Shown here one piece after another: positions 24,817-28,850 of a DNA stretch of 64,000 nt. The notes beneath the pieces are model-generated. The model saw nothing but the letters and a program-made list of their open reading frames with translations. It ran no database searches and was not told where the DNA came from. Position 1 is the stretch's first letter. Each line of letters starts with the position of its first letter. A program made the translations under genes and the position numbers. The DNA is from Campylobacterales bacterium (lineage in GTDB: Bacteria > Campylobacterota > Campylobacteria > Campylobacterales > Sulfurospirillaceae), in the NCBI GenBank assembly GCA_016930915.1, contig JAFGFU010000033.1, forward strand, positions 1 to 64,000, in the 5' to 3' direction.

Positions 24817-24855
24817 TAGTAAGTATTTAGAAAAATTTTATCAAAGAGGGCTATA

Positions 24856-26283
24856 ATGAAAGTAGCCCAAATTGAAAGAAATGTTATGAATAAACATGTT
24901 GTTGAACAAACCGTGATTTTCTTTAGTGTCTCAAAATGGCTTTTTCTCTCTTCGGTTGTTGGAATGATGATAGGGGGCTTGATGTCTCTTTTTTTAACTA
25001 TTCTTTCAACAGCTGAAGCAACAAGAGGAACTCTTCCTTTCCCTTTTTATTTTACCCTCCCTTTTGCATTAATGCTAACGACGTGGATTGTCCAAACGTT
25101 TGATAAAAATGCCACGGGGCATGGTACTGAAAAGGTGATTGAGGCAGTGCATAAACGTGATGGTTACATCAATGCTAAAGTGATTCCTGTTAAGTTAGTG
25201 GCTACGGTTCTAACCATTTTTTCAGGAGGTTCGGTAGGCAAAGAGGGACCAGGGGCTCAAATTGGTGCAGGGGCGGCATCGTTTGTGGCAACACTTTTGA
25301 AATTTTCAAAATCGGATCGCAAAAAGCTGGTGATATGTGGTATTAGTGCGGGATTTGCTTCGGTATTTGGTACACCCATTGCAGGAGCGATTTTTGGTAT
25401 TGAGGTGCTTATTATTGGCGTGATTATGTATGATGTTTTACTGCCATCGTTTATTGCTGGATTTGTTGCTTTTACGACAGCACAGTTTTTAGGCGTGAGT
25501 TATCATTATTATGACATTAACATGTACAGAGCATTTAGTTTAGATTTTTCACTAATTATGCAGGTGGTTTTAGCGGGTGTTTTTTTTGGGGTTGTTTCTG
25601 ATTTGTTTATTACCGTGGTGAATAAAGTAGAAATGTGGATAAAAAATATTCCTTATAACCGTTACTTAAAAGCGTTTGCTGCTGGCATGGTGATGGTAAT
25701 TATCTCTTATTTTCTTTCTGAAAATTATTTGGGTTTAGGCTTGGGAACCATTCGTGATGCCCTCAGTCCCAATACGCTCATCTCCGATAATGTGCATTGG
25801 TATGATTTTATTTTCAAAACACTCTTTACTTCTATGACGCTTGCTTCTGGGGGAAGTGGGGGAATTATTACGCCTGTTTTTTATGTGGGGGCTACGAGTG
25901 GAGTTGTTTTTGGGCATATCACAGGAGATCACATTGCGTTGTTTGCCGCCCTTGGATTTGTGAGCGTGTTGGCAGGGACAACAAATTCTCCGATTGCGTC
26001 TATTATTATGGCGGTGGAACTTTTTGGTGTGCATATGGCCAATTACGCAGCACTTAGTGTCGTCATTGCCTTTTTGATTACAGGGCATCGGAGCGTGTTT
26101 GGTTCTCAAAAATTGGCACTCAATAAGGCAGATAATATTACGATAAAAGAGGGAAGCGATGTTGAGGATACGTCGATTAGCATTGATATGAGAGATATCG
26201 ATAAGGTAAAGCGGTTGAAAAATAGATTACGTTATAAACAGTTACGATGGCAAGTGAAAAATGCAAAACAAGATGAAAACTAA
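24856..26283 (+). CDS. CLC-family chloride channel/antiporter with unusual selectivity residues
   Basis: 475 residues with the CLC fold (about ten or more hydrophobic segments). The gating-glutamate motif is GKEGPGAQIG (E130) and the second signature is SGGSGGIITPVF. Two expected features differ. The GSGIP anion-coordinating motif is replaced by GHGTE (88-92). The internal proton glutamate of bacterial exchangers (second E of IIEEM in CLC-ec1) aligns with V184 in FGTPIAGAIFGIEVL, as in CLC channels. No CBS domains are seen; the C-terminal 55 residues are charged. Whether it is a channel or an exchanger is unclear. It stands after purT and overlaps the start of the DUF523 gene. Confidence 0.9.
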   Translation: MKVAQIERNVMNKHVVEQTVIFFSVSKWLFLSSVVGMMIGGLMSLFLTILSTAEATRGTLPFPFYFTLPFALMLTTWIVQTFDKNATGHGTEKVIEAVHKRDGYINAKVIPVKLVATVLTIFSGGSVGKEGPGAQIGAGAASFVATLLKFSKSDRKKLVICGISAGFASVFGTPIAGAIFGIEVLIIGVIMYDVLLPSFIAGFVAFTTAQFLGVSYHYYDINMYRAFSLDFSLIMQVVLAGVFFGVVSDLFITVVNKVEMWIKNIPYNRYLKAFAAGMVMVIISYFLSENYLGLGLGTIRDALSPNTLISDNVHWYDFIFKTLFTSMTLASGGSGGIITPVFYVGATSGVVFGHITGDHIALFAALGFVSVLAGTTNSPIASIIMAVELFGVHMANYAALSVVIAFLITGHRSVFGSQKLALNKADNITIKEGSDVEDTSISIDMRDIDKVKRLKNRLRYKQLRWQVKNAKQDEN

Positions 26284-26743
26284 AATACTTATCAGTGCCT
26301 GTTTAATGGGCGAAAATGTGAAGTACGATGGTGGTAATAACCTTTTACATGTAAAGATAATAGAGCAGTGGAAAAAAGAAGGGCGTTTGGTGCTTGCATG
26401 TCCTGAAGTCTTAGGGGGATTGAACACGCCTCGTCCTCCTTGTGAAGTGGTATGTGGATCTGGACATGTGGTGAATTGTGAAGGTGAAGATGTGACTAAA
26501 GCTTTTGTTAAAGGGGCAGAGGAGAGTTTAAAAATCGCACATGAAAATGGTATAGTAATGGCAATTTTAAAAGCCAGAAGTCCTTCTTGCGGAAAAGATG
26601 TCATCTATGATGGTACCTTTTCGCATACACATGTGCGTGATTCTGGTTTTACATGTAAAGCTTTGCATAAAGCGGGGATTGTTGTCTTTAGCGAGGAAGA
26701 GTTAGAAGCGGCGGAGGCTTTTTTAAAACGCAATGAAGTTTAG
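26261..26743 (+). CDS. DUF523 family protein
   Basis: 160 residues (or 156 from the ATG at 26273) with conserved cysteines: ILISACLMGENVKYDGG, LACPEVLGGLNTPRPPCEVV and ILKARSPSCGKDVIYDG. This is the DUF523 pattern. Cys-rich loops suggest metal or Fe-S binding, but function is not established. Some relatives carry a DUF1722 domain fused behind, absent here. It overlaps the clc stop and carries two TTACATGTAA copies, read as LHV (26345) and FTCK (26649). Its stop overlaps the end of the convergent MmcQ/YjbR gene. Confidence 0.8.
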   Translation: MQNKMKTKILISACLMGENVKYDGGNNLLHVKIIEQWKKEGRLVLACPEVLGGLNTPRPPCEVVCGSGHVVNCEGEDVTKAFVKGAEESLKIAHENGIVMAILKARSPSCGKDVIYDGTFSHTHVRDSGFTCKALHKAGIVVFSEEELEAAEAFLKRNEV

Positions 26744-27096: not shown

Positions 27097-27234
27097 TCTT
27101 TCCCCTTTTTATGGTCTACGTGAAGTATAACGCTAAAGAGTAAAATTGTATATAAAAAGAGAAAAAAAGTCTTATTAACTTTTTGTTTACAAAGGATTAA
27201 TAGAACGTTTAAAGAGTTACTCTATACTTTCACT

Positions 27235-27318
27235 ACCAAGACAATTACCTCCTTTTTGTGAATCACTTAACTTTTTTAGAGAGCTTCCAGATTTGCCCGA
27301 TCTGGAAGCTTTTTTTTT
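27235..27318 (+). ncRNA. Candidate small RNA with anti-Shine-Dalgarno stretch and strong terminator
   Basis: A TATACT -10-like box (27223-27228) precedes about 50 bases containing ATTACCTCCTTTTTGTG, then a perfect 11-bp terminator stem and a T-run. No gene on this strand lies upstream to need the terminator, and no credible reading frame lies in the interval. CCTCC in an unpaired 5' region could pair with ribosome binding sites. The alternative is a leader or attenuator for the downstream solute-binding protein, but that gene has its own TATAAT after the terminator. Confidence 0.5.
27282..27318 (+). terminator. Orphan intrinsic terminator
   Basis: Stem AGCTTCCAGAT (27282-27292) with ATCTGGAAGCT (27300-27310), loop TTGCCCG, followed by T8. 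It has the correct polarity only on the plus strand, where there is no upstream coding gene since DUF523 ends some 540 bases earlier. Confidence 0.9.
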
Positions 27319-27332
27319 GTTCAAAAATCTAA

Positions 27333-27338
27333 TATAAT
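27333..27338 (+). promoter_or_regulatory. -10 element immediately before the solute-binding protein ATG
   Basis: TATAAT ends six bases before the ATG at 27345, so a transcript starting at the usual distance would begin at or next to the ATG, giving a leaderless or near-leaderless mRNA. No ribosome site is visible between the -10 box and the ATG. Confidence 0.45.
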
Positions 27339-27344
27339 CCCCCT

Positions 27345-28850
27345 ATGAAAACACTTTTATTGATACTTATTTTTTGTATATCTCCTATAGTTGCGAGTAC
27401 GCTTCATCTCTCTATTTCGGCTAATCCGAGTCGTATTAATCCCATTTTATCGACAGATGCGACAAGTTCACAGATTACGCAGTGGATTTTTAATGCGTTA
27501 GTCACGTATGATAAAGATGCGAATATCGTCCCTGAATTGGCAAAGCGCTACTATTTTGTTGACGAAACGACGCTCATTTTTGAGTTAAGAGACGATGTAA
27601 GATGGAGCGATGGAGAACCTTTTAGTGCTAAAGATGTGCTTTTTACCTATGAGACGATTATTTCTCCAAAGATTTTTACACCCTATTCATCAGGGTTTAT
27701 GCATGTTTTACATGTAAAGATATTAGACCCTTATACTATTGAAGTAAAATACAAATATCCTTATTTTAAAGCCCTAGAAATTTGGATGATGGAAGTTTTG
27801 CCTGAACATATATTACGTTTAGAGAGTGACTTGATGCGCAGTAAGTTTAATCAATCTCCTTTGGGGACGGGGTCATATACCCTTGAAGAGTTTGCCACTT
27901 CTAAAAATATTGTCCTCAAAGCCAATGCAAACTATTTCATTCATAAACCTAATCTTGATCAAATCATTTTTCACTACTTGCCTGATCGTTCATCTGAATT
28001 TTTAATGCTCAAATCTAAAAAACTTGATGTAGGGACACTTACTCCTTTGCAGTTAGAACGTCAAATTGATGAGGATTTTCGTAAAAATTATGCCATTTAT
28101 GAAGACATTGCCCACACGTATTCTTATATGGGTTTTAATTTACAGAGTGAAAAATTCAAAGATGCCCGTATTCGAGAAGCACTCTCTTTGGCGATTGATA
28201 GAGAAGAGTTGGTGGATATTCTTTACTTTGGGCACGGCAAAGTGTGTACAGGTCCTTTTATGCCAGGCACAGGTGCATTTAATAAAAATGTTAAAGCACC
28301 AAAACAAGATATTGCCAAAGCCAAAGCGCTTTTAAAAGAGGCGGGATATGATGAAAAAAATCCTTTTACGTTTGAACTCTCTACAAGTGCGAGTGGAAGC
28401 GGAAGTTATTCGGCGCAGATTTTGCAGTATCAATTGCAAAAAGCAGGTATTGTCATGAAACTGCGTATTATGGAGTGGCAAGCTTTTTTAAATACAGTCA
28501 TTCTTCCTCGAAATTTTGAGGCTGTTTTAATGGGATGGTCTTTGGGCTTGAAACCTGATGCGTATAGTATTTGGCACAGTGAGTCAATGCGTAAGGGGGG
28601 CTTTAACTTTGTAGGATATCACAATGAAAAAGTGGATGCGCTGATTAAAGAGGCGGAAAAAACAGTCAATCAAGAGCAGTTTGATTCGCTTTATCGAGAG
28701 ATGTTTGAGCGTATTGTTGCGGACAATCCTTATCTTTTCTTAGTCATTCCTAATAGCATTACTGCCGTGAACAAAGAGATACATCCTGTTTCCACCTCAC
28801 TCATTGGCATTATGCATAATGCTGTTGATTGGATTAAGCCAGAACTTTAA
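27345..28850 (+). CDS. Periplasmic peptide/nickel-type ABC transporter substrate-binding protein (SBP_bac_5)
   Basis: 501 residues with a signal peptide (MKTLLLILIFCISPIVAST) and the family 5 extracellular solute-binding fold: LHLSISANPSRINPILSTDATSSQI, VPELAKRYYFVDETTLIFELRDDVRWSDGEPFSAKDVLFTYETI, and SLAIDREELVDILYFGHGKVCTGPFMPG. The ligand is probably a di- or oligopeptide; it cannot be decided here. No permease or ATPase gene is adjacent, so it is an orphan receptor, either using a transporter encoded elsewhere or signalling. The C-terminal ALCIMHNAVDW-like end is intact. Confidence 0.88.
   Translation: MKTLLLILIFCISPIVASTLHLSISANPSRINPILSTDATSSQITQWIFNALVTYDKDANIVPELAKRYYFVDETTLIFELRDDVRWSDGEPFSAKDVLFTYETIISPKIFTPYSSGFMHVLHVKILDPYTIEVKYKYPYFKALEIWMMEVLPEHILRLESDLMRSKFNQSPLGTGSYTLEEFATSKNIVLKANANYFIHKPNLDQIIFHYLPDRSSEFLMLKSKKLDVGTLTPLQLERQIDEDFRKNYAIYEDIAHTYSYMGFNLQSEKFKDARIREALSLAIDREELVDILYFGHGKVCTGPFMPGTGAFNKNVKAPKQDIAKAKALLKEAGYDEKNPFTFELSTSASGSGSYSAQILQYQLQKAGIVMKLRIMEWQAFLNTVILPRNFEAVLMGWSLGLKPDAYSIWHSESMRKGGFNFVGYHNEKVDALIKEAEKTVNQEQFDSLYREMFERIVADNPYLFLVIPNSITAVNKEIHPVSTSLIGIMHNAVDWIKPEL

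Follow-up and report, generated by a model that had tools for sequence, protein, structure and literature searches.

A predicted multi-copy small RNA family whose core matches the anti-Shine-Dalgarno tail of 16S rRNA in the bacterial family holding Sulfurospirillum

We analyzed a 64,000-nucleotide (nt) stretch of a Campylobacterales genome (GCA_016930915.1, contig JAFGFU010000033.1, positions 1 to 64,000, referred to here as the window) and focused on an intergenic terminator unit at positions 27235-27318 of the plus strand. Comparison with relatives strongly supports the view that this unit belongs to a previously uncatalogued small RNA (sRNA) family that is specific to the bacterial family holding Sulfurospirillum. 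The RNA unit and its family, the invariant anti-Shine-Dalgarno core, the covarying terminator and a promoter box common to the copies are all strongly supported by these comparisons, and the original prediction of a stand-alone RNA of ∼85 nt with an anti-Shine-Dalgarno stretch, which had been made from the window alone, is thereby backed by comparative evidence. The multi-copy family, the mimicry of the 16S tail and the putative regulator box go beyond that prediction. From these features we infer transcription of the RNA, the identity of its regulator, its induction by envelope stress and its repression of targets through pairing with Shine-Dalgarno sites. The features of the window copy are as follows.

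27174..27211, plus strand: four direct repeats, ATTAA (27174), GTTTA (27185), ATTAA (27196) and GTTTA (27207), at a spacing of exactly 11 bp, a putative box for an OmpR-family response regulator.
27223..27228, plus strand: -10 box TATACT, near-invariant among all copies.
27235..27318, plus strand: predicted sRNA gene of ∼84 nt with multi-copy homologues (covariance model match G000:C9:27232-27317, E 6e-15).
27247..27258, plus strand: anti-Shine-Dalgarno core ACCUCCUUUUUG, identical to the 3' tail of 16S rRNA in its first 9 nt, with ACCTCCT invariant in the alignment.
27278..27318, plus strand: intrinsic terminator with the conserved loop UUUGCCCG, of which all ten aligned stem pairs covary among 51 copies and the loop is at least 90% conserved.

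The terminator of the window copy has, as had been noticed at the outset, a perfect 11-bp stem (AGCTTCCAGAT at 27283-27293 paired with ATCTGGAAGCT at 27300-27310) with T8 at 27311-27318 directly on its 3' side, and weaker pairs lengthen the stem from 11 to 16. The region from 27223 to 27318 folds with z = -6.0, none of 200 shuffled sequences being equally stable, and 27235-27318 alone gives z = -4.6. Likewise in agreement with the original prediction, TATACT lies at 27223-27228, the core ACCTCCTTTTTG at 27247-27258 is unpaired in the centroid fold, and no gene precedes the unit on its own strand for ∼540 nt: the nearest upstream plus-strand gene, a member of the 2-thiouracil desulfurase family (PF04463), stops at 26743, ∼540 nt before the terminator, and the YjbR gene between it and the sRNA lies on the minus strand. 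The 5' end of the RNA was placed 7 nt past the -10 box and is uncertain by a few nucleotides. An Rfam scan of the window gave no relevant match at the gathering threshold, and a scan of nine sRNA copies with E values up to 5 gave nothing relevant. A minus-strand reading, with AAAAAGGAGGT as the ribosome site of a tiny open reading frame, was set aside because the frame, inspected by eye, is not kept across copies.

The range of the family was determined in a sample of one genome per species, several of them drafts. When 24 Sulfurospirillum genomes were searched with a 145-nt query, 23 proved to hold copies, mostly two to six in each; this sample included S. diekertiae, S. cavolei, S. arcachonense and several metagenome-assembled genomes. 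A first covariance model, built from 51 copies (alignment A1), gave 88 matches in the same 24 genomes, with 1-9 per positive genome and the last few weak. When a broader covariance model was applied to 399 genomes of the order, 41 were positive, all from one bacterial family and spread over five genera; the RNA was thus found in 41 of the 44 genomes sampled from the bacterial family of Sulfurospirillum, with three negative, and in none of the 355 genomes of the order outside it. The sole outside match of the first model (G154, weak at E 0.006) lacks the core and was gone with the broader model. Because the terminator unit is multi-copy and conserved across the whole bacterial family, it is, as judged by these comparisons, far beyond chance. 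In other genera, tandem copies 0.2-2 kb apart were observed (L291, L295 and L299), a sign that the sRNA gene may have been duplicated locally.

The anti-Shine-Dalgarno stretch is conserved more strongly than any other part of the RNA. The near-invariant sequence ACCUCCUUUUUGU runs through the whole family and matches the 16S rRNA 3' end over ACCUCCUUU, and in some copies over ACCUCCUUUCU. In the 51-copy alignment ACCTCCT is invariant and TTTTTGT nearly so, and ACTTCCT occurs in one near-duplicate copy that was left out of the alignment. Because the 16S rRNA gene in Sulfurospirillum has the 3' end GGATCACCTCCTTTCT, the RNA carries the ribosome's own anti-Shine-Dalgarno tail, the identity extending over at least 9 nt and over 11 nt in copies such as L057. 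The core forms the loop of an ACAAAAA/UUUUUGU hairpin in some copies. The terminator stem varies widely in sequence among paralogues (GCTTCCAGA, ACGCTCGAA, GCACTCAGA and CTCACTCCGA), and all ten of its aligned pairs are kept by two-sided changes, with 98.2% of cells paired, against no more than about 50% when the structure as a whole was slid along the alignment; its loop, UUGCCCG, is fixed. Conservation of the CCTCC stretch and of the stem in relatives, which had been proposed as a check on the RNA, is therefore evident from the invariant ACCTCCT and the covarying pairs. In copies L025-L038, a group of paralogues near a gene for a DedA-like membrane protein, the conserved hairpin has no immediate T-run, and a second CCC-containing stretch and a T-run follow ∼20-30 nt beyond it; these RNAs may be longer.

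The promoters of the copies are also alike. Direct repeats of 11-bp period stand before TATACT in nearly every copy, and genera of the bacterial family other than Sulfurospirillum keep them as well. In a set of 30 non-redundant paralogous promoters, repeats of the form RTTTA/RTTNA occur at -49, -38, -27 and -16, spaced exactly 11 bp. The four-repeat pattern gave 41 matches in the 24 genus genomes, coinciding with sRNA copies, and its reversed control gave 1. With two repeats only, at an unchanged distance to TATAMT, there were 2-13 matches per genome, compared with 0-2 for controls. A generic-promoter explanation for the repeats was tested, and the exact arrangement proved exceptional: in 800 kb of one genome, two repeats with a -10 box spaced in this way gave 3 matches, whereas the 62 other spacings gave 5 in total. 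Among 88 TATAMT sites from upstream regions that had been trimmed, none had RTTTA at -16; this sampling missed known matches and is weak alone.

Outside the sRNA copies, two-repeat boxes precede tpx, a Bax1-inhibitor gene, a ClC channel gene, an MFS transporter gene and the following operon, located in the same genome as the window.

L214 1004-4001 (C10): htrA, an OmpR-family response regulator gene and an ArsS-family kinase gene, an apparent operon with 11-bp repeats in its promoter.

The sequence ATTTAC-N5-GTTTAC lies upstream of these three genes and suggests autoregulation. The gene order is like that of htrA-cprR-cprS in Campylobacter jejuni, and the C. jejuni CprR site, said to have been described by Svensson et al. 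in 2015, is reportedly GTAAA, the complement of TTTAC. A box of the same kind thus stands both upstream of a regulator's own operon and upstream of the sRNAs, as in a CprR/ArsR-type regulon, and the regulator is most likely the CprR/ArsR-type protein encoded with htrA. CprRS concerns the cell envelope, according to reviews. Two precedents support an OmpR-family reading of the box: RR2, an OmpR-family regulator of Sulfurospirillum, recognizes CTATA repeats that are separated by 6-nt gaps and placed around the -35 box (PMC7755780, whose authors also performed differential RNA sequencing of Sulfurospirillum), and the sites of HsrA around the -35 region consist of TTTAAG repeats at 11-bp spacing (TTTAAG-N5-TTTAAG; PMC5253667).

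Two further observations concern this candidate regulon. A second candidate sRNA lies at L213 965-1075 of the window's own genome (C11:44765 onwards); it is a short unit with its own terminator behind the promoter GTTAACCGATCGTTTACTTTGAGTTTCTATACT, which most genus genomes conserve, is convergent with a Cache-domain histidine kinase gene and apparently belongs to the same regulon. In the window itself, at 24820-24880, a ClC channel gene carries TATAAT immediately ahead of its start together with a degenerate two-repeat box, and its orthologue in G002 (L217) has a two-repeat box upstream.

We next consider what the copies could be other than sRNA genes, for which the gene downstream of the window copy matters.

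27333..27338, plus strand: TATAAT of the solute-binding-protein gene, ending 7 nt before the ATG, with the same layout at L001-L004, L014, L018, L020 and L021.
27345..28850, plus strand: family 5 extracellular solute-binding protein gene (PF00496, E 3e-79), a neighbor outside the sRNA.

That this gene has its own TATAAT beyond the terminator had been pointed out in the original prediction, and the element is conserved at orthologous loci, 7-9 nt ahead of the ATG in several species. Because this distance is so short, the solute-binding-protein mRNA is probably leaderless; a leaderless mRNA could not be hit at a Shine-Dalgarno site by an anti-Shine-Dalgarno sRNA. The solute-binding-protein gene comes next, in the same direction, in 21 copies, the window copy among them, as would be expected if the unit were its 5' leader with an attenuator or riboswitch. 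Yet the gap ranges from ∼10 to 200 nt and varies between genomes, so that neither continuity with nor a constrained distance to one specific downstream gene is seen. The copies occupy many different, unrelated intergenic loci, paralogous copies precede unrelated or opposite-strand genes, the solute-binding-protein gene owns the conserved TATAAT described above, and the unit showed no visible antiterminator partner and no Rfam riboswitch match. We therefore rejected the leader, now very improbable, on the grounds of the variable distance and of the opposite-strand gene that comes next after 10 of 75 copies, in agreement with the initial argument against a simple leader. Because the contexts vary and the downstream gene has its own TATAAT, the RNA is, on this evidence, a stand-alone gene with its own promoter and its own terminator, independent of its neighbors. 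We give just as little credence to a repetitive or mobile DNA element without RNA function. The copies are indeed numerous and dispersed, some of them in tandem within 1-2 kb, but their stems vary by compensatory pairs while promoter, core and loop stay conserved, their linkers are distinct, orthologous positions are kept across species, and the copies end at the terminator.

The reading that we consider rather probable is that the copies encode sibling trans-acting sRNAs, similar to LhrC of Listeria, that are induced by the CprR/ArsR-type regulator and block Shine-Dalgarno sites under envelope stress. An OmpR-family regulator would bind at two to four repeats that are phased at 11 bp and overlap the -35 region; upon envelope stress, it would turn on all sRNA copies together. 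Each RNA would present its copy of the 16S anti-Shine-Dalgarno tail (ACCUCCUUUUU), single-stranded or held in a loop, and would pair with the purine-rich ribosome-binding sites of selected mRNAs, so that 30S binding is blocked; the UUGCCCG loop of the terminator may serve as a second contact site, for target RNA or for a protein. By analogy with LhrC1-5, induction as siblings and blocking of ribosome sites probably apply here as well. Hfq was not detected in the 24 genus genomes, in which positive controls were found; Helicobacter pylori and C. jejuni are likewise not known to have Hfq.

Several results weigh against this proposal. Target prediction covered 751 genes in 800 kb of one genome, with start codons called heuristically, and pairing energy was no stronger for signal-peptide genes than for cytosolic genes (p = 0.14 and 0.64 for two copies); in the same 800 kb, Shine-Dalgarno strength itself was slightly higher for signal-peptide genes (p = 0.004). 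A perfect AAAAGGAGGT precedes the ATG in only 0-6 genes per genome, mostly unconserved, and the counts for the reversed-pattern control were not far lower. Recurrent perfect complements belong to a small flagellar-rod-domain protein, LivG-like ATPases, a lipoprotein and, in a single genome, a TonB-type receptor. Covariation in the 51-copy alignment gives no support to the 5' hairpin by which the core would be presented, the T-run is weak or distant in some copies, and the box resembles the HsrA/CosR motif TTTAAG-N5-TTTAAG (PMC5253667).

This resemblance means that another OmpR-type protein could control the same sRNA family, either the HsrA/CosR orphan regulator or a DccR- or PhosR-type system. 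HsrA sites, with their TTTAAG repeats 11 bp apart around -35 (PMC5253667), fit such a regulator, and OmpR-family sites commonly have repeats of period 11 (also PMC7755780). However, the box precedes the htrA-regulator-kinase operon itself, as autoregulation predicts, as well as other stress genes, and we regard a different regulator as the less likely choice, at perhaps one chance in a few. Less likely still, and doubtful in our view, is that the RNAs act as a stress-induced decoy of the 16S rRNA 3' end, which would dampen initiation on many mRNAs with strong Shine-Dalgarno sites and spare leaderless or weak-site mRNAs, so that translation would shift towards the latter in envelope stress without Hfq. 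Identity of the core with the 16S tail over 9 nt, or 11 nt in some copies, the presence of up to 9 copies per genome and the scarcity of conserved perfect targets are consistent with a decoy, and we keep it at low probability because it needs no specific targets. Against it stand the stoichiometry, since competition with all ribosomes would be needed, and the conservation of linker and terminator loop, which a plain decoy would not need.

As far as these searches show, this would be the first sRNA family described from the bacterial family of Sulfurospirillum. If the proposal of LhrC-like sibling sRNAs holds, a lineage in which no Hfq is detectable would have a multi-copy anti-Shine-Dalgarno system, linked to an apparent envelope-stress regulon. 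It would offer a directly testable case of how targets are chosen by sibling sRNAs whose seed is the general ribosome-binding signal, and the CprRS/ArsRS-type systems of Campylobacterota, which are poorly understood, would gain a natural read-out.

Sets of near-identical sRNAs whose anti-Shine-Dalgarno loops are C/U-rich are known from the multi-copy families of Rhodobacter (CcsR and the 'cuckoo' RNAs) and rhizobia and from the sibling sRNAs of Neisseria; those families have other sequences and structures, and their hosts have Hfq, whereas none was detected in Sulfurospirillum. The original prediction had likened the window RNA to C/U-rich regulatory RNAs, with mention of Helicobacter RepG. 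The likeness to RepG of H. pylori is a loose one: it holds for the phylum (both are from Campylobacterota), for a similar size and for unpaired C in a conserved terminator loop, but not for homology: the authors of RepG found no homologues outside Helicobacter in a search that included Sulfurospirillum (PMC8295292). RepG places a C/U-rich terminator loop on homopolymeric G-repeats, whereas the loop here, UUGCCCG, has no C/U run, the conserved anti-Shine-Dalgarno core lies on the 5' side of the terminator, and several copies of the gene exist. By the marks of RepG membership, a C/U-rich loop and homology to Helicobacter RepG, the RNA thus falls outside that family. The closest parallel lies with LhrC1-5 of Listeria monocytogenes, multi-copy sRNAs that are induced by the OmpR-type two-component system LisRK under envelope stress and that bind AG-rich Shine-Dalgarno regions through single-stranded sites (PMC5880928). 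Here too there are several copies with a common anti-Shine-Dalgarno site that is unpaired or held in a loop. OmpR-type two-component control under envelope stress is a candidate feature, given the box found both at the copies and at the htrA-regulator-kinase operon, tpx and a Bax1-inhibitor gene. The present family, in contrast, comes from another bacterial phylum, has no Rfam match to LhrC or to any known family, and is distinguished by one core that copies the 16S tail together with a conserved terminator loop.
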